DNA of 64,000 nucleotides from a virus, in the IMG/VR virus record IMGVR_UViG_3300046010_009647, positions 1 to 64,000 of that record. One strand, 5' to 3'. Shown piece after piece: positions 4,513-64,000 of the stretch. The position numbers and the translations under genes are program-made. Numbering within the stretch: the first letter of the stretch is position 1; each line of letters begins with the position of its first letter. The notes under the pieces are model-generated. The model had not been told where the DNA came from. It saw only the letters and a program-made list of their open reading frames with translations, and did not search any database.

Positions 4513-4585
4513 ATCGGGATGGAAGGTACTGCCCCTTCTCCTTTGCGTCCCAAACGCAATGTGATACTTTTCTACTACATCCCGA
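4513..4585 (-). tRNA. Candidate tRNA-Pro(TGG) with unusual T loop
   Basis: The minus-strand fold has an acceptor TCGGGAT/ATCCCGA and a perfect 5-bp anticodon stem, TTGCG-TTTGGGA-CGCAA, placing anticodon TGG at 4552-4550. The T stem GAAGG/CCTTC is intact, but its loop is GGCAGTA instead of the TTCGAAT type, with one extra base before the acceptor. The D stem is poor. It is directly abutted by the next tRNA-like element. It could read CCA proline codons or be a relic. Confidence 0.5.
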
Positions 4586-12263: not shown

Positions 12264-12555
12264 CGACATCATCCAAGCCGCAATCAAGTGGTGGAAACAA
12301 GTTTGGTTTGAAGCTAAACTGAAGGCCAGGCTTACCATGATTGAGTGGGATAATCGGATTGAATCCGAGTTAGAACGGAAAATTGAACAAAAACCGATCT
12401 ACAAGGAACATCCGATTGATCCCGTGCTTCAGACCGGTGAATCCCAGAAGTTGGGTGGAGCCATGCAACTAACCGCACCTTGGTACAATGATGGCCTACA
12501 ACCCCCAAGGAACGATGGAGTGTCGGAAGCGCCTAGCATGGACGATCGCCTGTGA
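12244..12555 (+). CDS. Hypothetical protein
   Basis: 103 residues from ATG 12244, overlapping the nuclease gene by 20 nt. An N-terminal amphipathic helix (FNDIIQAAIKWWKQVWFEAKL) is followed by a charged middle and a disordered C-terminus. Perhaps a membrane-peripheral or replication accessory protein. No family recognised. Confidence 0.5.
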   Translation: MIRILFNDIIQAAIKWWKQVWFEAKLKARLTMIEWDNRIESELERKIEQKPIYKEHPIDPVLQTGESQKLGGAMQLTAPWYNDGLQPPRNDGVSEAPSMDDRL

Positions 12556-12679
12556 GCGCGCTGTTGTCACAAAAGAAGATGCCGTTGATTTATATCACAA
12601 GATGATGAAAGAATTTGATGCGATAGATAAACGAAATGAATACAAAAGGACTGAGTCTAATAAGACTCAAGTAACTTAA
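12488..12679 (+). CDS. Small hypothetical protein
   Basis: A 63-residue protein beginning MMAYNPQGTMECRKRLAW. It overlaps the previous gene by 68 nt in another frame. The middle reads as one helix (TKEDAVDLYHKMMKEFDAID). Position in the replication operon is the only functional hint. Confidence 0.5.
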   Translation: MMAYNPQGTMECRKRLAWTIACERAVVTKEDAVDLYHKMMKEFDAIDKRNEYKRTESNKTQVT

Positions 12680-12746
12680 GGATTGCTTGATGGCCTCCAT
12701 GGATTGGGCAGCGTAGGATTAAGAGACACACAACCAGGCCCTCCCC

Positions 12747-12932
12747 ATGGACGTACACGTCGGCTTGGGTGAGTGGATGAATAGTCTCACGAGTCGCATG
12801 CTAAGTGCGATGGACGGGGACTGTTTTTATCTGCCCACCCTTATGCATCTTCATGCGTACACAATCTTAAAAGAGGCCTCCTTCCCCGACCGGGACTTTA
12901 AAGTAGTAATCAAGAACTCCACAGAAGTATGA
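12747..12932 (+). CDS. Small hypothetical protein
   Basis: A 61-residue protein starting MDVHVGLGEWMNSLTSRMLS. Its stop overlaps the start of the primase-helicase gene (ATGA), so it is translationally coupled to it. Not recognised. Confidence 0.5.
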   Translation: MDVHVGLGEWMNSLTSRMLSAMDGDCFYLPTLMHLHAYTILKEASFPDRDFKVVIKNSTEV

Positions 12933-15583
12933 CGAACCAGAATTTGAAAGCTCTTAAGCCAGGCGAAATCCGACTAGATTACATCCCACTTGATTGGCCC
13001 CTTACTCCCCTTGGACCCAACAAAGATCCCTACATCCAAGGTTGGCAGAACAAACCATTCAGTGTACGTGAAATTGAAGAAGAGCTGGCAACAGGGGATT
13101 GTCGTGCAATTGGCCTATTGGGAGGTCCTGCTTATAACCATCCCTATGGCTTGGTTTGGGTTGATGTTGATGGTCCTAGCGTCTACCCCCTCATCGAACA
13201 AATCTCTGAACTCCCCCTCCAAGACGCGCTGCCTGCCACCCTTACCATCTTCAGTGGTAAAGTCGGCCGCGAACGTAAGCTCTACAAATTAAACCGCGAT
13301 AAACACAAGCATTTCCTACGCAATAAATACACCTGGCACGGGGAAGAAAACAAAGAAAAGCTTGAGATCCTTTGGAAGAAACACCAAGGTGTCTTGATGG
13401 GTGTTCACCCAGAGACCGATGGTTATTACACAGGTGAGGGGCTTGGGTTTGAGTGGTCTGATTCGCTGCCCGAACTACCGGACTGGATCCTCAATAACAT
13501 CATCACCAAGAACGCCAAGCAAGGAAGTCCCGCACAAGAAGTATCACGTGTGATCGGCGGTAACTTCGCCATCCAAAGTGTCATTGGACTGGATCGTGAT
13601 ATCCAACTTGCGTCCGAAGCAATGTGGGGTATGCCTCCAGAAGCGACGGATGACTATGACATCTGGATCATGGTTGGTCAGTCGCTCCATAGTTTGGATG
13701 AATCGTTGCTGGATGAATGGGATGAATGGTCCAAGCAGAGCGATAAGTACAAAGATGGTGAATGCCACAGGCGTTGGCTCTCCTTTAGTAAAGGCGGTGG
13801 TCGTGGTATCGGATCACTCGTTCATATTGCCAAAGAGAACGGGTGGGTTCCTTCTCAAGACTACCGAGTACAAAGCCCTGATGATGCAACGCTAGAAGCT
13901 GTTGCTGCCATCCTACCAAACCTTGAACAAGATATCTTAGATCATATGGAAGGCCTCGCATCCCTTGGTTCTGCTGCAGTAACAAACGTAAAAACACCAC
14001 CTAAAAAAACAACGTTTACTCAGAAACCAAAAGAAAACGTTGATGAGGAAGAAATAAAAGATTCCAAAGGTCGTAACCAGCCTTCCCATATCATTGCTGA
14101 TCAAGTGCTTGGTATGTACGCCGGCAACCTGTTGTTTAGTCAGCCGCACAACCAGTTTTTTCTCTATGACGCACGCAAAGGTCTGTGGGAGAAAAAGACC
14201 AAGATCGAGATGTATGGCAGCATCCGAGAAAAAATGAAAGTACTGACTTTCTCTGATTGGCTGCCCAAAGGTTTTAACCACGCCATGATGGAAGACATTT
14301 ACAAACAGCTCCAAGCATTGGTGCCGTTTGATGAGTGGTATGACGATATGGATTACCTCTTGTTTACCAATGGTTTGTTAGAGGTCAGCACCAGGGAACT
14401 GCAACCTTTCCAACGGGATCTGTACATGACGCAACAGATGCCGTACGAATACGATCCATCGGCTACTTGTGAAGAAATCATTAAGTGGTTGAAGCATACA
14501 CAACACAATTCCTGGAACCGTACGCAAGTACTTAGGGCATGGCTTAGAGCAACACTGCTTGGTAACTACGAAATCCAAAAGTTTCTGGAGATTGTTGGCC
14601 CAGGTAAGTCTGGTAAATCAACCTACGCAAACCTGGCGGTGGCATTGGTAGGACGTAGTAACACCTACTCCACAGACTTTGAAAACATGGAGAAAAACAG
14701 GTTTGAAGCAGCAGCCTACATGGGTAAAAAACTTCTCCTGTTCCAGGATGCTGATCGTTGGGGTGGTTCCGTATCAAGACTGAAAGCAATCACTGGTAAT
14801 GACTGGATTCGTTCTGAGCGCAAGTACCAAGGCGAAGCGTTAGATCCATTTCAATACCATGGAATGGTCATTATTACGGCTAACGAAGCTATTCAGTCTA
14901 CCGACTACACTTCTGGTTTAGCTCGTCGCCGTCTCACTATTCCGTTTGATCGTCCATTCACTGGAGGACAAGCGGAACAAAAGGAACTAATCAAGTTTGA
15001 TAACAAGGGCAATCCGCAAGGTGAGTTTGCGCCTCTACTGCCAGGGCTGGTGAACTGGCTACTGGATATGCCAGAAGCTGATATGCGTTCCTACCTGATG
15101 GAGACCGCACAACATGTGGACTTCTTCCAGAAGTATGAGAAGGAACAAAGCCTGCGTTCTAACCCTGTCTTGGATTGGATGAGTCAACATGTGGTCTACG
15201 ATCCTGGGGCTAAGTCTGTTGTTGGTACCTGTAAAAGTGCGCAAGGTTCCAATAACTTCTATCAAAATTGGCAACAATGGCTTTATCCGAGCTATGCCGA
15301 ATTCTGCCGTAGCTGTAATGTCGGATTCGTTGGACGTGGTCGATTTGAAGTTCTCTTCTTTGATATCTGTAAGCACCAGCTAAAACTTAATGTCTTTAGT
15401 AAGAAGACCAATAAGGGCCTACTGGTGTTTAATGCGGTTAATCGTGAATCCAATCCCAAGTACGAGACCTATCCATCCATTGTTGAGGTCGCCTCTAACC
15501 CACAAAAATACCTTCCTCTTTACGGAATGGACATTACTACGTCCACTAATGCGACAATGGAGGATATTGCGGAAGTCATGTGA
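12929..15583 (+). CDS. Bifunctional prim-pol primase and SF3/D5 helicase
   Basis: 884 residues. The N-terminal prim-pol domain has VWVDVDG (Asp78-Asp80) and LMGVHPETDGYY. A PriCT-2-like linker follows (DYDIWIMVGQSLHSL to HIAKENGW, about 235-305). The C-terminal D5/SF3 helicase has Walker A GPGKSGKST near residue 557, Walker B KLLLFQDAD near 602 and sensor VIITANE near 645, then an Arg-finger-like LARRRLTIPFDRPF. It primes and unwinds the phage origin. The start overlaps the small gene before it, and GTG of the AdoMet decarboxylase overlaps its stop. Confidence 0.9.
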   Translation: MTNQNLKALKPGEIRLDYIPLDWPLTPLGPNKDPYIQGWQNKPFSVREIEEELATGDCRAIGLLGGPAYNHPYGLVWVDVDGPSVYPLIEQISELPLQDALPATLTIFSGKVGRERKLYKLNRDKHKHFLRNKYTWHGEENKEKLEILWKKHQGVLMGVHPETDGYYTGEGLGFEWSDSLPELPDWILNNIITKNAKQGSPAQEVSRVIGGNFAIQSVIGLDRDIQLASEAMWGMPPEATDDYDIWIMVGQSLHSLDESLLDEWDEWSKQSDKYKDGECHRRWLSFSKGGGRGIGSLVHIAKENGWVPSQDYRVQSPDDATLEAVAAILPNLEQDILDHMEGLASLGSAAVTNVKTPPKKTTFTQKPKENVDEEEIKDSKGRNQPSHIIADQVLGMYAGNLLFSQPHNQFFLYDARKGLWEKKTKIEMYGSIREKMKVLTFSDWLPKGFNHAMMEDIYKQLQALVPFDEWYDDMDYLLFTNGLLEVSTRELQPFQRDLYMTQQMPYEYDPSATCEEIIKWLKHTQHNSWNRTQVLRAWLRATLLGNYEIQKFLEIVGPGKSGKSTYANLAVALVGRSNTYSTDFENMEKNRFEAAAYMGKKLLLFQDADRWGGSVSRLKAITGNDWIRSERKYQGEALDPFQYHGMVIITANEAIQSTDYTSGLARRRLTIPFDRPFTGGQAEQKELIKFDNKGNPQGEFAPLLPGLVNWLLDMPEADMRSYLMETAQHVDFFQKYEKEQSLRSNPVLDWMSQHVVYDPGAKSVVGTCKSAQGSNNFYQNWQQWLYPSYAEFCRSCNVGFVGRGRFEVLFFDICKHQLKLNVFSKKTNKGLLVFNAVNRESNPKYETYPSIVEVASNPQKYLPLYGMDITTSTNATMEDIAEVM

Positions 15584-15936
15584 GCAATGGCCGGCACCTG
15601 ATCCTGGATCTTTACGACTGTGATCAAGAAATCCTGAATGATTATGAGGAGCTTCAACGATTGCTTGAGGCTTCTCTCGTCATGGCAAAAGCAAATGTCC
15701 TACGGATCTTTGGGGAAAAGTTCCAGCCACAGGGTGTAACGCTCTTGGCATTACTGTCTGAATCACATGCATCAATCCATACATGGCCAGAGATTGGCTA
15801 TTGTGCTATCGATCTTTATACATGTGGTAATACGACACAGACGCATCGAGCGGCTGAGTTTTTGAAAACAAAACTTAAGGCAAAAACATCAGAAGAAAAA
15901 GAGTTGGTAAGGTCAATAACACCTACAGCTGTCTGA
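15580..15936 (+). CDS. speD: S-adenosylmethionine decarboxylase proenzyme
   Basis: A 118-residue class 1 bacterial-type SpeD. LLSESHASIHTWPE contains the Glu-Ser autocleavage site that makes the pyruvoyl cofactor. CAIDLYTCGN carries the catalytic Cys. Decarboxylated AdoMet feeds spermidine synthesis. speD is a known auxiliary gene of cyanophages. GTG 15580 overlaps the primase-helicase stop (GTGA), so it is in the replication operon. Confidence 0.9.
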   Translation: MSNGRHLILDLYDCDQEILNDYEELQRLLEASLVMAKANVLRIFGEKFQPQGVTLLALLSESHASIHTWPEIGYCAIDLYTCGNTTQTHRAAEFLKTKLKAKTSEEKELVRSITPTAV

Positions 15937-15964
15937 GTAATAGTGTTAACAGGGCTGAGCAATT

Positions 15965-15970
15965 TATAAT
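15965..15970 (+). promoter_or_regulatory. -10 element TATAAT upstream of fibre gene
   Basis: A perfect TATAAT lies 26 nt before ATG 15997. No good -35 is seen at 16-18 nt. TTAACA occurs with a spacer of 13. Confidence 0.4.
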
Positions 15971-15996
15971 AAAGAAATCAAAGTAGTTGTAAAAAG

Positions 15997-17568
15997 ATGG
16001 CGGGCACTCTACGGCTCAGCAACACTGGTACTGGTAACGGTCAAAGTACAATCACCACTGCAGCATCAGGTGATACCACGTACACCTTACCCAGTGGTGG
16101 TGGTACCTTTGTAACAACTTCTTCTACACAAGCATTAACCGTACCTTTTGCTTCTGGTACTGTTAGTGCACCTTCTGTTACATTTCTTGGGGATAGTAAT
16201 ACTGGTATTTATTCCCCAGCTGCAGATACAATTGCATTCACAGAAGGTGGTGTTGAATCCTTAAGGATTGACTCCTCAGGCCGAGTAGGGATTGGCACTA
16301 CTAGCCCTTTGGCTCCGCTTCACATAAATAGCGCTGGCGCTGACAACATTGCAGTTCGCATGTCGAACTCGCTGAACACTTGTGTAGTAGGGCCGATCGC
16401 CGACGGCACTCTAAATGTTTTTAGCAACTCTGCGCTTCCAATTGTCTTTTCTACAAGCGCAATCGAACGCGCCCGCATCGACAGCTCGGGACGCCTGTTA
16501 GTTGGCACGTCTACAAGCATTACCTCGGCCGGCACAAGCGGTGGTGGTGCTGGATCTACCCCAGCTTTGCAAGTAGTTCACCCTTATCAAAACATTAATC
16601 TTGCTGGTATTAGTCTTTCTCGCTTCCAAGCGTCCAACCCGTACGGAGCCGTTTTTACCATACAAAAAAGCAAAAATGATACTATTGGTAGCCATGCAGT
16701 AGTTGCTAGCGGTGATGAGCTAGGTGTCATTTCCTTTGATGGAAGCAACGGCACAGCTTTTAATACGGCAGCCACTATTAGCGCTGTTGTAGACGGCACC
16801 CCCGGCGCCAACGACATGCCGGGCAGGTTAGTGTTCTCCACTACCGCCGACGGAGCGAGCAGCCCGACGGAGCGGATGAGGATTGATAAAGATGGAAACG
16901 CAGTTTTTAAGACGGACAACTTTAGTAGGACTCGTTTTGACAATATTAGCGGGAATGTTTACGGTATTCTGCTCGGAGCGTCCACTAGTGGTATTATTCA
17001 GGCCGCAAAGAATGACGGCCCTGTTATCTCATTAAACCGCACAAATTCAGACGGAAGTGTTGTAGACATCATCCAAGACGGCACAGTTGAAGGCACAATC
17101 TCTGTATCCGGCACCACCGTCAGCTACAACGGTGCTCACCTCTCCCGCTGGTCACAACTCCCCGGTGGCACAGAGCGCACTGAAATCATGCGCGGCACTG
17201 TACTAAGCAACATCGACGAGATGTGCGAGTGGGGCGAGGAAAACAACGAACAGCTCAACCGCATGAAGGTGAGTGACGTTGAAGGTGATCCCAACGTGTC
17301 CGGTGTGTTCCAAGTCTGGGACGATGACGGCGACACTTACACCGACGACTTCTACTGCGCGATGACGGGTGACTTCATCATCCGCATTGCCGAAGGTGTC
17401 ACCGTGCAGCGTGGACAGCTTCTTATGTCAGCGGGTGACGGAACTGCAAAGCCACAAGGTGATGGCTTTGTTCAAGACAAAACAATAGCCAAAGTCACAT
17501 CAACTCATGTCACATGTACCTACGATGATGGCAGCTACTGCGTGCCTTGCGTGCTGATGGCTTGCTAA
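15997..17568 (+). CDS. Tail fibre protein with peptidase G2-like C-terminus
   Basis: A 523-residue protein. The N-terminus MAGTLRLSNTGTGNGQSTIT is followed by modules of the type GDSNTGIYSP...LRIDSSGRVGIGTTSP, typical of triple-beta fibre shafts. The C-terminal 130 residues (from about SRWSQLPGGTERTEIMRGTV to YCVPCVLMAC) resemble the peptidase G2/intramolecular-chaperone end of cyanophage fibres. It shares exact DNA blocks with the minus-strand fibre gene at 23683-25137. Role: receptor binding. Confidence 0.8.
   Translation: MAGTLRLSNTGTGNGQSTITTAASGDTTYTLPSGGGTFVTTSSTQALTVPFASGTVSAPSVTFLGDSNTGIYSPAADTIAFTEGGVESLRIDSSGRVGIGTTSPLAPLHINSAGADNIAVRMSNSLNTCVVGPIADGTLNVFSNSALPIVFSTSAIERARIDSSGRLLVGTSTSITSAGTSGGGAGSTPALQVVHPYQNINLAGISLSRFQASNPYGAVFTIQKSKNDTIGSHAVVASGDELGVISFDGSNGTAFNTAATISAVVDGTPGANDMPGRLVFSTTADGASSPTERMRIDKDGNAVFKTDNFSRTRFDNISGNVYGILLGASTSGIIQAAKNDGPVISLNRTNSDGSVVDIIQDGTVEGTISVSGTTVSYNGAHLSRWSQLPGGTERTEIMRGTVLSNIDEMCEWGEENNEQLNRMKVSDVEGDPNVSGVFQVWDDDGDTYTDDFYCAMTGDFIIRIAEGVTVQRGQLLMSAGDGTAKPQGDGFVQDKTIAKVTSTHVTCTYDDGSYCVPCVLMAC
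16470..16513 (+). repeat. 44-bp inverted repeat, copy 1 (fibre gene)
   Basis: Identical, in reverse orientation, to 24666-24709. Encodes the RIDSSGRLLVGTS module in both fibre genes. Confidence 0.85.
16843..16884 (+). repeat. 42-bp inverted repeat, copy 1 (fibre gene)
   Basis: Identical, in reverse orientation, to 24310-24351. Encodes the TADGASSPTERMRI module. Confidence 0.85.
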
Positions 17569-61369: not shown

Positions 61370-61636
61370 ATGACGACAGTAATGACGACGATTAGCACAG
61401 ATGAGATGACTAGCCGACTTGTCGATGCAGCGTTCGCGCTGCGAGCAGGCAAGAAGGTTGTCATGAAGCCTGGCGTGCTGCGAGCCAGTGGCTGGTCAGC
61501 TAGCCAAGTGATTAAGTTCTTGTTAGAGGAACTGTATGAGTGCGAAGTTTACATGGATAACGACGTGATGTGGAAGGTGTGGATTACACGCCGCCCCGAA
61601 GATCACGGATTAGTTATCGAAGGCAGTTGCCGTTGA
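61370..61636 (+). CDS. Small hypothetical protein
   Basis: 88 residues. MTSRLVDAAFALRAGKKVVM, ASGWSASQVIKFLLEEL and DVMWKVWITRRPEDHGLVIE. Mixed alpha/beta, no membrane segment. Lies between two non-coding blocks and is followed by a hairpin at 61649-61668. Not recognised. Confidence 0.55.
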   Translation: MTTVMTTISTDEMTSRLVDAAFALRAGKKVVMKPGVLRASGWSASQVIKFLLEELYECEVYMDNDVMWKVWITRRPEDHGLVIEGSCR

Positions 61637-61953
61637 CGATTGTAATTTACCCTGGTGAGAGCCAGGGTTTACTACAGCCCTCAATCCCTACATTCCCCAC
61701 CTAATTACCGTACAATCCTTGTCAATTCACTAGGTATTTATACCTTTTGATACGAATTCGTATCGCGCGCGACCTCATTTAGGCTACAGCTGGGGGTTGG
61801 TCTTACAGAACAGTTGCAGCATATACCCGACCTACAGACTCGGGATTAACCGTCAAGCTGGACGTTAAACGTAGCAGACAACTCGGCGGTCGGTCACGAC
61901 CTTGGCATCCACACTTCAGTGGTTTAAGTCCAAGCTCACCCTACGGAGTAACC
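61637..61953 (+). promoter_or_regulatory. Structured control region before the small-gene array
   Basis: Begins with a terminator-like hairpin ACCCTGG/CCAGGGT (61649-61655 with 61662-61668) followed by TT. Then GGTAT-TT-ATACC (61733-61744) and the perfect 16-bp palindrome GATACGAATTCGTATC (61749-61764). Further downstream several hairpins follow, e.g. CGTC-AAGCTG-GACG and GGTCG-GTCA-CGACC. TTGTCA at 61719-61724 could be a -35, but no well-spaced -10 is seen. CGGAG precedes GTG 61954. Confidence 0.45.
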
Positions 61954-62151
61954 GTGGACTACACCGTCAACATCATCGAGCGTAACGGTCAGTACTTCCT
62001 CCAAGAAGTCTTTGCAGTTACTGAGTTCCAGTATGTGGAACAAGTGACTGCAGGTCCGTTCCAAGCTCGATGGCAAGCAGACGTGCGACGCTCACAGGAG
62101 TATCCGGCATACCGGGGACTAACTGATGAGTACTGCCGTCTGCAACACTGA
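61954..62151 (+). CDS. Array gene A, hypothetical
   Basis: 65 residues from GTG 61954, with CGGAG 5 nt upstream. MDYTVNIIERNGQYFLQEVF, then WQADVRRSQEYPAYRGL. First ORF of the hairpin-separated array. Function unknown. Confidence 0.6.
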   Translation: MDYTVNIIERNGQYFLQEVFAVTEFQYVEQVTAGPFQARWQADVRRSQEYPAYRGLTDEYCRLQH

Positions 62152-62235
62152 TCCGTTAAAGCGGGTTGGGAGGTGCAAACCCTCCCACAGTTATTGCCCC
62201 CAGCGGAGATGGGCACCGCACACACGGAGAACACC
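62152..62235 (+). repeat. Intercistronic hairpin cassette R1
   Basis: TCCGTTAAAGCGG follows the stop, then a 7-bp stem TGGGAGG/CCTCCCA with loop TGCAAAC (62167-62187), then TGCCC/GGGCA (62195-62199 with 62211-62215), then a C/A-rich leader. Confidence 0.7.
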
Positions 62236-62316
62236 GTGACCTTCACCGTTACCGAAACACTCGCACTCGCCGCCATCTTTGTGGTGGCATGTGTGATCGG
62301 TTACGTTACCGACTGA
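62236..62316 (+). CDS. Array gene B, 26-residue membrane peptide
   Basis: GTG 62236 opens MTFTVTETLALAAIFVVACV then IGYVTD. The length is just one membrane span. GGAGAACACC precedes the GTG. Too short for normal gene callers, but the flanking cassettes mark it as a unit. Confidence 0.55.
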   Translation: MTFTVTETLALAAIFVVACVIGYVTD

Positions 62317-62393
62317 TCCGTCTAAGCGGGAGGCAGGGTGCAAACCCCTGCCCAGTCATTGCCACAATCCCGTGGCATCTACACCAAACGACA
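62317..62393 (+). repeat. Intercistronic hairpin cassette R2
   Basis: TCCGTCTAAGCGG, then a 7-bp stem GGCAGGG/CCCTGCC with loop TGCAAAC (62332-62352), then TGCCAC/GTGGCA with loop AATCCC (62360-62377), then a C/A-rich leader. Confidence 0.75.
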
Positions 62394-62573
62394 GTGACTC
62401 AACGCATTGCAACCTACGTGATCATCGCTGCTTCCATCATGGGTATTGGTGGGCAAGCCGTTATCTACTTCACAGATAAGGCAACTGCTCACCAATGCAT
62501 TAACCATGACTGGCCTAAGGAGCATGACACACTCCACCGTAACTGGTGCATCACCAACGGTTACGACATCTGA
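62394..62573 (+). CDS. Array gene C, small membrane protein
   Basis: 59 residues from GTG 62394: MTQRIATYVIIAASIMGIGG, a membrane span, then a Cys-containing outer part (CINHDWPKEHDTLHRNWC). No SD; the leader is CTACACCAAACGACA. Function unknown. Confidence 0.55.
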   Translation: MTQRIATYVIIAASIMGIGGQAVIYFTDKATAHQCINHDWPKEHDTLHRNWCITNGYDI

Positions 62574-62652
62574 GTCCGTTTAAGCGGCGTTCCAGGGTGC
62601 AATTCCCTGGTTCAGTATTGCCACAACTCAGTGGCATCTCACGACACTACCT
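62574..62652 (+). repeat. Intercistronic hairpin cassette R3
   Basis: TCCGTTTAAGCGG, then a 6-bp stem CCAGGG/CCCTGG with loop TGCAATT (62592-62610), then TGCCAC/GTGGCA with loop AACTCA (62619-62636), then a C/A-rich leader. Confidence 0.75.
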
Positions 62653-62814
62653 ATGACTTACTACGTCATCATCAAGAATCACGACGAATTCTCTCAGGCT
62701 TATCTCCAGGGCTGTGAGCAATCATTTAATACTGAGCAACAAGCTCAGGATTACATTCAAACATTTGAGGATTGGGAGCAAGATCTCCTGGAGATTGACT
62801 TCAATCCTTTCTGA
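62653..62814 (+). CDS. Array gene D, small acidic protein
   Basis: 53 residues: MTYYVIIKNHDEFSQAYLQG and an acidic helix (YIQTFEDWEQDLLEIDF). No SD; the leader is CTCACGACACTACCT. Function unknown. Confidence 0.55.
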   Translation: MTYYVIIKNHDEFSQAYLQGCEQSFNTEQQAQDYIQTFEDWEQDLLEIDFNPF

Positions 62815-62893
62815 GTAACAGGCGTGATGCCAGGGGATCAAATCCCCTACTCAGTATTGCCACAATCCCGTGGCATTTACTCAACTCAACACT
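62815..62893 (+). repeat. Intercistronic hairpin cassette R4
   Basis: AGGGG/CCCCT with loop ATCAAAT (62832-62848), then TGCCAC/GTGGCA with loop AATCCC (62858-62875), then a C/A-rich leader. The upstream CCGTTTAAGCGG part is replaced by GTAACAGGCGTGATGCC. Confidence 0.7.
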
Positions 62894-63142
62894 ATGCTGT
62901 GCTACTACCCATACGAAGGTGCAACCGAGCGCATCACCTGGCATGGAGGAGAATCAACCATGCTTCACTACCAAGTGCAGGTTGATGACTACAAGGGAGA
63001 TCCTGACTGGATCGACCGTTACTCCCAGACACTTGGCGGAGGTATCCCTTGTGGTACTAAGGAGTTATTAGCTGCTATGTCTGATTACTATCAGCACATC
63101 AGCCAACTCCATCTCGACACAATGGCTGGAACTATCTTCTGA
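62894..63142 (+). CDS. Array gene E, hypothetical
   Basis: 82 residues from ATG 62894, MLCYYPYEGATERITWHGGE, then YQVQVDDYKGDPDWIDRYS. Soluble, Tyr/Asp-rich. The leader CTCAACTCAACACT lacks an SD. Function unknown. Confidence 0.55.
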   Translation: MLCYYPYEGATERITWHGGESTMLHYQVQVDDYKGDPDWIDRYSQTLGGGIPCGTKELLAAMSDYYQHISQLHLDTMAGTIF

Positions 63143-63210
63143 TTCCTGCTCTAAGGGGCTTCGGCCCTTTACTGCAGGATTCAACTCCTGCTCCCATACC
63201 ACACAACACC
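63143..63210 (+). repeat. Intercistronic hairpin cassette R5
   Basis: AAGGGGC/GCCCTTT with a C(TTCG)G tetraloop (63153-63170), then GCAGGA/TCCTGC with loop TTCAAC (63174-63191), followed by TCCCATACCA and ACACAACACC before the ATG. The second hairpin is very close to a tRNA T arm. Confidence 0.65.
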
Positions 63211-63399
63211 ATGACTAAACTCAACATCCGTAAGAACCTTGCGTCAATCCTTGCCAATACTGCAGCAGCAGTTGAGAATGCCAAGGTACCTACCAAGGCA
63301 GGCATGACAGAGAAGCTGAACGAGTATCGTACTCGGGCGGCGGCACTCATCATGCCGAACGACATGGCATTCATCATCCAACCCAAGCAAGGTAACTGA
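63211..63399 (+). CDS. Array gene F, small basic helical protein
   Basis: 62 residues: MTKLNIRKNLASILANTAAA and KAGMTEKLNEYRTRAAALIM. Start preceded by CACACAACACC, no SD. Followed after 3 nt by gene G, the only pair in the array without a cassette between them. Confidence 0.55.
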   Translation: MTKLNIRKNLASILANTAAAVENAKVPTKAGMTEKLNEYRTRAAALIMPNDMAFIIQPKQGN

Positions 63400-63402
63400 T
63401 TC

Positions 63403-63618
63403 ATGCGACGCAACTACCAACGTAACTACTTCTCTGACTCCTGTGTTGCTATTGTTCTCGGCACTGGTCTTGGCTTATTCCTATCTGTTGGAGCACAGAA
63501 AGTTCTCAACAGACACTACAAGGCCACGTGCCACAACCAACCAGGACATAACCTGATCTACACCAAGTCTTTCCTTGGTGACACGTACTTTTGCATCAAT
63601 GCAAAGTACATGAACTGA
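63403..63618 (+). CDS. Array gene G, small membrane protein
   Basis: 71 residues: MRRNYQRNYFSDSCVAIVLG, one membrane helix (VAIVLGTGLGLFLSVGA), then a polar part with two Cys (TCHNQPG and YFCINAKYMN). N-terminus positively charged, so the C-terminal part is probably outside. Function unknown. Confidence 0.55.
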   Translation: MRRNYQRNYFSDSCVAIVLGTGLGLFLSVGAQKVLNRHYKATCHNQPGHNLIYTKSFLGDTYFCINAKYMN

Positions 63619-63698
63619 TCTCTGCACTTAAGCCTTCTCATCCTTGTGATGCGTGGCTTTTCTGCAGGGTTCTCCCTGCACTACACCAAACAACACCA
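63619..63698 (+). repeat. Intercistronic hairpin cassette R6
   Basis: AAGCC...GGCTT enclosing CATC/GATG (about 63630-63659), then TGCAGGG/CCCTGCA with loop TTCT (63663-63680), then CTACACCAAACAACACCA before ATG 63699. Confidence 0.65.
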
Positions 63699-63980
63699 AT
63701 GACAATCACGATCAGCCCCAGAGAAATTACAGATGCTCAACAGATGTTGAACATCGAACCAAACGACTGTTACCTGGAGTTTACGCAAGGTACTGTCTAT
63801 CTTTGTTGGGTTACCGACAAGGAGACAGCTCAGATGTATATCGACAACCTCTTCGAGTGTGTCGATGTCAAGTTGTACGGCAATTGGGTAGACATCTACG
63901 GACAACACGAACGTGAAGTCCCAGTGTCATTACCCGATGTCAAACTGTTTGACTGCCGTTACATCCTCGCTACTAACTGA
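63699..63980 (+). CDS. Array gene H, hypothetical
   Basis: 93 residues from ATG 63699, chosen because it follows the cassette and C/A-rich leader. MTITISPREITDAQQMLNIE, YLEFTQGTVYLCWVTDKETA. Mixed alpha/beta, acidic. Function unknown. Confidence 0.55.
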   Translation: MTITISPREITDAQQMLNIEPNDCYLEFTQGTVYLCWVTDKETAQMYIDNLFECVDVKLYGNWVDIYGQHEREVPVSLPDVKLFDCRYILATN

Positions 63981-63981
63981 C

Positions 63982-64000
63982 ATGAAGACAATCTACTCAA
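63982..64000 (+). CDS. Start of a further ORF, cut by the window end
   Basis: ATG at 63982, one base after the stop of gene H, opens MKTIYS and continues out of the window. Too short to judge. Confidence 0.35.

Follow-up and report, generated by a model that had tools for sequence, protein, structure and literature searches.

What separates tiny genes that follow one another on a long phage message? The question is raised by positions 61,954 to 63,980 of the DNA considered here, a stretch of 64,000 nucleotides (nt; hereafter the window) which forms bases 1-64000 of the 79,499-base virus record IMGVR_UViG_3300046010_009647. In this region, eight plus-strand open reading frames (ORFs) follow one another, separated by six structured spacers, R1 to R6 (table 1). 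An earlier note made from the letters of the window had pointed out both the genes and the spacers, and both are recovered here, the border between ORF6 and ORF7 being devoid of any element. The array extends past the 3′ limit of the window (record bases 60000–79499, labelled L003, were examined). We find that these spacers are copies of real and widespread elements: R1–R4 form one family (A), R5 and R6 form a separate one (F), and two further families (B and C) occur at other gene borders. Thereby, the view that R1–R6 constitute a single family fails, R5 and R6 sharing a different, three-strand plan. As for their function, we tentatively infer that they punctuate the message, setting cistrons apart and protecting them, with A as a target of the host tRNase Z; we lean towards this reading without considering it probable.

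Read together with their relatives, R1–R4 adopt a three-way junction composed of a closing stem, a small hairpin and a T-loop hairpin, the small hairpin being replaced by an 8-nt link in one subtype. At the downstream end, one unpaired base is followed by TTGCC, which opens a second domain folded either as a GCC..GGC hairpin or as a pseudoknot. The T-arm-like hairpins with 7-nt loops noticed earlier in R1–R4, the TGCCAC/GTGGCA hairpin of R2–R4 and its variant in R1 are all present, the last one as a pseudoknot. What had been missed is the closure of the junction, together with the B element before ORF1 and the array beyond the window. The closing stem contains the stop codon of the upstream gene in most copies. 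Within a set of 89 copies from 41 loci (retained from 143 candidates after removal of those with a different loop, a longer gap or insufficient pairing), the first base of the stop falls at stem position +0 to +4 in 61 copies, and no stop was found in four.

The T stem and acceptor stem of a transfer RNA (tRNA) together make 12 base pairs, and this length recurs in family A. The search left the spacing between T-loop and TTGCC open; it measures 13 nt in 67 of the 89 copies and 14 nt in 22, a spacing of 13 nt corresponding to 12 pairs and a base resembling the discriminator. An uninterrupted run of 12 pairs is seen in 47 copies, of 11 in 13, of 13 in 14 and of 14 in two, and 13 copies have one bulged base. 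How these pairs are split between T-arm and closing stem varies (7 + 5 in 25 copies, 5 + 7 in 15, 6 + 6 in seven, the others being one pair or bulge off). This set was chosen on TTGCC and therefore cannot test the base after the discriminator. An anchor-free scan of the 41 loci, with a minimum of 11 pairs, found 94 T-loop folds on the array strand, eight on the other strand and four in shuffled sequence. Of these 94 folds, 57 have 12 pairs, 20 have 11, 16 have 13 and one has 14; the unpaired base is followed by TTGCC in 73 and by TTACC in 11, and the remaining 10, three of them with a cytidine directly after the unpaired base, look unlike A. Family A thus displays the T-loop on a coaxial 12-pair helix that defines a minimal substrate of tRNase Z and RNase P, and its discriminator is not directly followed by cytidine (anchor-free set; one exception among the 73 TTGCC folds).

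Among 31 aligned relatives of R1 and R2, pairing holds in 99.1% of cells and both partners have changed in 11 of 15 pairs, a level reached by none of 500 shuffles; these copies were picked with near-complete pairing required, the anchor-free scan being the less biased test. The pseudoknot form of the second domain pairs in 20 of 21 copies, with six pair types. Folding of single sequences gave z-scores of −4.6 (R2), −3.0 (R3), −4.7 (R4), −5.0 (R5) and −3.6 (R6), versus −1.2 and −1.1 for two control stretches, and at minimum energy R2 and R4 adopt the three-way junction, R3 only the hairpins without closing stem. Thirty viral stretches matched the A pattern, which is narrow; among cultured phages A was sought only in S-EIV1, where no typical copy was found. 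B or C is also present in 25 of the 41 A loci.

Family C folds into an H-type pseudoknot of 28 nt, whose loops read CU, U and UAAAC; in this record it is located past the window at 66540, 68051, 74155, 77944 and 79273 (bases from 60000 on were scanned). A stem-based scan of all loci, requiring AAA in the third loop, yielded 243 matches with the C geometry, of which 214 have the loop CU, 206 the loop U and 197 the loop UAAAC; the second most frequent geometry, which is probably C read in another register, had 95, the rest at most 37, and three shuffles at most 29. All three pairs tested in the first stem are formed in 77 of 98 copies from viruses and in 17 of 22 from genomes, for maxima of 39 and 12 in 2000 shuffles. 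The search pattern had left this stem free, except for one base fixed in the viral scan, and the test is less biased than the covariation alignment, for which 88 of 143 unique copies were selected on condition that they pair.

The C pattern was retrieved in at least 120 stretches of viral contigs, and C occurs in phages of Staphylococcus, Bacillus, cyanobacteria, actinobacteria and Vibrio. We examined 17 annotated phage regions: three from Staphylococcus phages, two from Synechococcus phages, one each from phages of Lactobacillus, Streptococcus, Bacillus, Moorella, Mycobacterium, Arthrobacter, Nostoc, Microcystis, Rhizobium and Vibrio, the thermophilic phage D6E and a crAss-like phage. The third loop is altered in the Rhizobium, Bacillus and some other copies; matches in Paracoccus, Lentibacter, Acaryochloris and Anoxybacillus are known from search tallies only. 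In these 17 regions, the next gene is annotated as scaffold in four cases, as a hypothetical gene followed by a capsid gene in three, and as a tRNA in three (3, 5 and 183 nt away); isolated phages with C before scaffold or capsid genes include Staphylococcus phage 80 and Bacillus phage poppyseed. Among Bacilli, C was detected in six of 299 genomes, including the seed, and the reversed control pattern in one of 299. The matches also comprise 27 Vibrio records; the idea that these arose by chance was dropped, since the stem of the one region examined is compensated. Species genomes provided 23 matching stretches, two of which appear by eye to be spacers between CRISPR-like repeats (L281, Saprospira grandis; L288, Oscillatoriaceae). 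As side observations, C is followed in some Firmicute phages and D6E (L242, L243, L245 and L286) by an alike stretch running from TTATGCA to a GGAG-like site before the next gene, and a terminator-like hairpin with a T run is visible by eye directly 5′ of C in L242, L274 and L292.

Family B consists of an outer stem, an internal loop CAU / UGUAAGU, which we take to fit the T-loop rule U-N-N-R-A, and a free inner hairpin. The copy in the window departs from this plan only in TTTAAGT for TGTAAGT, more copies lie past the window in the same record, and the pattern scan recovered at least 119 viral stretches. Among 93 unique copies, one free outer pair is present in 81 and the other in 62 (shuffle maxima 67 and 48), and a free inner pair in 87 (shuffle maximum 63). 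S-EIV1 has one B and four C; BLAST searches for B in cultured phages returned two 17-nt matches inside a coding gene, or none.

In family F, a middle strand is complementary to both outer ones, and R5 and R6 fold in the two alternative pairings. The hairpin GCAGGA-TTCAAC-TCCTGC, once likened to a T-arm, has a loop of 6 nt and is not the minimum-energy fold of R5. The strand sets CCTGC/GCAGG/CCTGC, GTTTG/CAGAC/GTCTG and ACTAC/GTAGT/GCTAC are found at homologous borders. Homologues of the four genes flanking R5 and R6 are present in 49 other loci, and the F plan was detected at the borders of these genes in 37 of the 49 by a stricter scan without shuffle control; a first regular-expression scan (3703 matches) was too permissive to count and was discarded. 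The labels of A that the stricter scan gave to homologues of ORF5 are unreliable and were set aside. The compensatory change suspected in the earlier note is borne out, against shuffles, by covariation among homologues for A, B and C.

B and C stand close to stop codons. B starts a median of 5 nt after the upstream stop (122 of 131 copies with such a stop) and C a median of 7 nt (212 of 220), and the next ATG frame opens a median of 30 nt after B and 24 nt after C. A stop lies within 15 nt upstream on the same strand for 103 of 131 B (79%) and 142 of 220 C copies (65%), compared with 16% and 12% of random positions. Five copies of each family (of 131 B and 220 C) are followed by a tRNA gene within 120 nt.

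Moreover, families replace one another at homologous borders. B and C precede homologous genes in 150 copy pairs and follow homologous genes in 72; A and B are exchanged in five pairs at homologous downstream genes, and A and C in one downstream and one upstream. Both neighbours are homologous at one border (upstream 82% over 105 amino acids (aa), downstream 58% over 584 aa), where L023 has B and L043 has C. Before homologues of ORF6, A is found in eight of 21 loci and F in at least 11; after homologues of ORF7, F is found in 20 of 36 and C in three (S-EIV1, L227 and L171), the other 13 being not assigned. Such a presence of different families at homologous borders suggests one shared role. 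Since unrelated folds replace one another there, they are unlikely to act as a metabolite switch or as one sequence-specific site, and a general border function fits.

The array is not accounted for by tRNAs, Rfam families or intrinsic terminators. ARAGORN reported no tRNA in the window and the Rfam tRNA models none in the array; at gathering score, Rfam 15 retrieved only tRNAs in the window, L003 and eight relatives; at E-values up to 10, two stretches gave a tRNA and weak matches far below gathering score; and no ribozyme model matched in the stretches scanned. Both tRNAs and known Rfam families were thus rejected as explanations. Intrinsic terminators were likewise discarded, a scan of 61600–64000 returning one site, on the minus strand, for 1.8 expected. 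Among the papers listed in a literature search, none deals with these elements. Family C might be among the thousands of unnamed candidate RNAs mentioned in part of PMC8040213.

Concerning the genes themselves, a PHROGs search of ten frames gave no match better than E 0.007, and a search of phages for a near match to the array region found none. By eye, a small hairpin stands before start codons at window 61942–61956 and 62222–62238 and in relatives, with GGAG in or after its 5′ arm and GTG or ATG at its 3′ arm (ACGGAG..CCGTG, ACAGGAG..CCTGT, ACATGGAG..CCATG). Elsewhere, an Rfam tRNA (42.3 bits) that ARAGORN does not report lies on the minus strand at window 4514–4584, and a tRNA-Leu (taa) lies past the window at L003:10071–10146. 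The genes at L003:8106–9821, 12350–13009 and 15601–17460 we take by eye to encode a PcfJ-like protein, ThyX and a family A DNA polymerase, respectively; the annotation of the S-EIV1 record (79,178 bp) includes an FAD-dependent thymidylate synthase and a family A polymerase.

Table 1. Genes and RNA elements of the array, in window coordinates.
Feature	Position	Strand	Description	Source
B element before ORF1	61901..61934	+	P1 CTTGG/CCAAG; loop CAT / TTTAAGT; inner hairpin CCAC..GTGG	
ORF1	61954..62151	+	65 aa, GTG start	ORF list
R1 (A element 1)	62146..62193	+	ORF1 stop in closing stem; hairpin CCG..CGG; T-loop TGCAAAC; unpaired A	
R1 second domain	62196..62219	+	pseudoknot type GCCC / GCGG / GGGC / CCGC	
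ORF2	62236..62316	+	26 aa, GTG start	read from sequence
R2 (A element 2)	62311..62358	+	5 + 7 base pairs; loop TGCAAAC; unpaired A	
R2 second domain	62361..62376	+	hairpin GCCAC..GTGGC	
ORF3	62394..62573	+	59 aa, GTG start	read from sequence
R3 (A element 3)	62569..62617	+	T-arm, loop TGCAATT; unpaired A	
R3 second domain	62620..62635	+	hairpin GCCAC..GTGGC	
ORF4	62653..62814	+	53 aa	ORF list
R4 (A element 4)	62810..62856	+	closing stem CTGAGT/ACTCAG; hairpin GGC..GCC	
R4 T-arm	within 62810..62856	+	AGGGG/CCCCT, loop ATCAAAT; unpaired A	
R4 second domain	62859..62874	+	hairpin GCCAC..GTGGC	
ORF5	62894..63142	+	82 aa; homologues at 33 other loci	
R5 (F)	63143..63191	+	strands CCTGC / GCAGG / CCTGC around central hairpin	
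ORF6	63211..63399	+	62 aa; F precedes homologues in some loci, A in others	
ORF7	63403..63618	+	71 aa; after homologues: F, or C in S-EIV1 and two contigs	
R6 (F)	63621..63680	+	F element	
ORF8	63699..63980	+	93 aa; nested in longer listed frame	read from sequence

How, then, could such folds serve a phage message? In the punctuation that we propose, most borders between tiny genes would carry a compact folded RNA, placed a few bases past the stop codon and about 25–30 bases before the next start. The folds would split the cistrons into units with defended ends, so that the message of each tiny gene may persist and be translated alone. Acting as a tRNA mimic, A would be recognized by host tRNase Z through its T-loop and 12-pair helix and cut after the unpaired base; the tRNA-like fold would then cap the 3′ end of the upstream message, and the GCC..GGC hairpin or pseudoknot the 5′ end of the downstream one. 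B, C and F would serve borders without the tRNA-like length, most simply as mechanical barriers to exonucleases. The tRNA ruler of A singles out the tRNA-processing enzymes, and the processing by RNase P or RNase Z envisaged in the earlier note remains the best lead for this family as far as tRNase Z is concerned. RNase P is less likely, because a cut on the 5′ side would precede the stop codon in many copies; a tRNase Z cut after the stem would spare it. RNase Z is described, in part of PMC7479834, as cutting after the discriminator, being repressed by cytidines there, and contacting the T arm and acceptor stem, preferences that family A fits.

Several observations weigh against this proposal. 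The T-loops of A mostly have G, not U, at position 55, and R1 (z-score −0.9) and the B element in the window (−1.5) fold no better than many shuffles. Stops within 15 nt also exceed random positions on the opposite strand (30 of 131 B and 72 of 220 C copies), and the exchange pairs, having loci in common, do not count as independent events. The archaeal RNase Zs described in the same part of PMC7479834 required a mature 5′ end, unlike A, which has a whole message on its 5′ side. Lacking the 12-pair ruler, B, C and F cannot be explained by tRNase Z, and the common role of the families rests on position and exchange. RNase J fits badly as the target of the barriers. Finally, a ribosome terminating at the stop codon would sit on the beginning of each element or unfold it, which makes translation insulation a fair rival.

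According to this rival, the fold past the stop codon blocks read-through or re-initiation, or switches shape with the ribosome on the stop codon. The tight spacing of B and C to stop codons and the stop within the stem of most A copies are consistent with it, as is the F strand beside the stop codon, which competes with strand 3 for the middle strand (R5 and R6 folding both ways). However, some B and C copies precede tRNA genes, where there is no translation start to protect, C comes after a terminator-like hairpin (by eye) in Javan271, L274 and L292, and the 12-pair ruler of A is left unexplained. We regard insulation as unlikely.

Self-cleavage, by which some elements (C and B first) would cut the message between genes as ribozymes, appears less plausible still. 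These folds are small, their unpaired bases are near-invariant (C: CU, U, UAAAC; B: CAU / UGUAAGU) while their stems vary freely, and they are spread over phages of many hosts; in addition, the hairpin, pseudoknot and UUAAA of C presumably resemble part of the pistol ribozyme. Yet C is only 28 nt long and lacks the rest of pistol, the Rfam ribozyme models were silent in the stretches scanned, and one would need either four unrelated ribozyme folds or folds that a ribozyme can replace.

Improbable to a slightly greater degree is the view of C as an exonuclease-resistant RNA that stops the host 5′–3′ exonuclease RNase J and so stabilizes the downstream message. There is a precedent, as a flaviviral exoribonuclease-resistant RNA (xrRNA) is reported in part of PMC5760640 to stop RNase J1 in vitro. 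C stands before scaffold or capsid genes in Firmicute and D6E phages, RNase J scored over the cut-off in 16 of the 22 genomes with a C match, and one query found no C match in 5,426 Escherichia coli genomes. RNase J as sole target first looked attractive from the matches in Staphylococcus, Bacillus, cyanobacteria, actinobacteria and alphaproteobacteria, and was then weakened by Bacteroidetes genomes and by crAss-like and Vibrio phages. Tested indirectly in this way, a block of RNase J is not upheld: six of the 22 genomes have no RNase J over the cut-off, including all three Bacteroidetes (two of these are metagenome bins, and one Bacteroidetes match is a spacer between CRISPR-like repeats), and C is present in a crAss-like phage and in a Vibrio phage, where the stem is changed yet paired and the genes are annotated on the other strand; Vibrio is not known to have RNase J.

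Lastly, DNA-level recombination points for cassette exchange, comparable to attC sites, as also raised in the earlier note, would suit the reshuffling of genes and element types among relatives, but this reading lacks support (no integrase, core site or breakpoint was sought) and is very improbable, since compensatory changes keep pairs including G–U while the sequence diverges, which points to RNA, and since orientation follows the genes (same-strand versus other-strand stops, 103 versus 30 for B and 142 versus 72 for C).

Returning to punctuation, the picture may be broader, and we consider possible, with somewhat more reserve, that phages use a repertoire of unrelated, exchangeable folds for this purpose. 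In such a repertoire, A would be an armless tRNA mimic with a stop codon in its acceptor-like stem, recruiting the host tRNA 3′-end enzyme, and the 28-nt pseudoknot, found across phages of many bacterial phyla, perhaps a new class of ribozyme or nuclease-blocking RNA. In any case, Rfam offers no model, within the stretches scanned, for at least three RNA families that show compensatory change, B and C each occurring in over 100 viral stretches and C also in cultured phages of many hosts. If punctuation is their role, it would explain how dozens of tiny genes are expressed separately from one message. Since C precedes the scaffold or capsid genes of phages that have been isolated, the idea lends itself to direct testing, and the folds could be ready-made parts for gene separation in synthetic operons.

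Comparison with known systems sets these elements apart. C presumably shares the short-loop H-type plan of luteovirus frameshift pseudoknots, but lies after a stop codon (no slippery site was sought), and the remaining stems of the pistol ribozyme are missing from it. Flavivirus xrRNAs are compact, pseudoknotted mechanical blocks, one of which stops RNase J1 (as given in part of PMC5760640), whereas C is a 28-nt H-type pseudoknot of DNA phages with putative resistance. RNase P is known to process phage RNAs, tRNA-like virus ends and messenger RNAs, as stated in part of PMC11143913. Like the tRNA-like substrates of RNase P and RNase Z (plant-virus ends, the C4 RNA of phages P1 and P7, operon messenger RNAs), A places a mimic of T-arm and acceptor inside another RNA; unlike them, it comes in serial copies at gene borders, with a stop codon in the stem and a second, capping domain, its cleavage being only predicted. 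Mitochondrial tRNA punctuation and the MALAT1 mascRNA also mark the border or end of a long RNA by a tRNA or tRNA-like fold, whereas the array has no complete tRNA and three other families occupy such borders. Phage T7 has RNase III sites between its early genes and, like the array elements, these are structured sites between cistrons by which a phage message would be split into stable units; the folds of the array differ from them and come as several interchangeable families.

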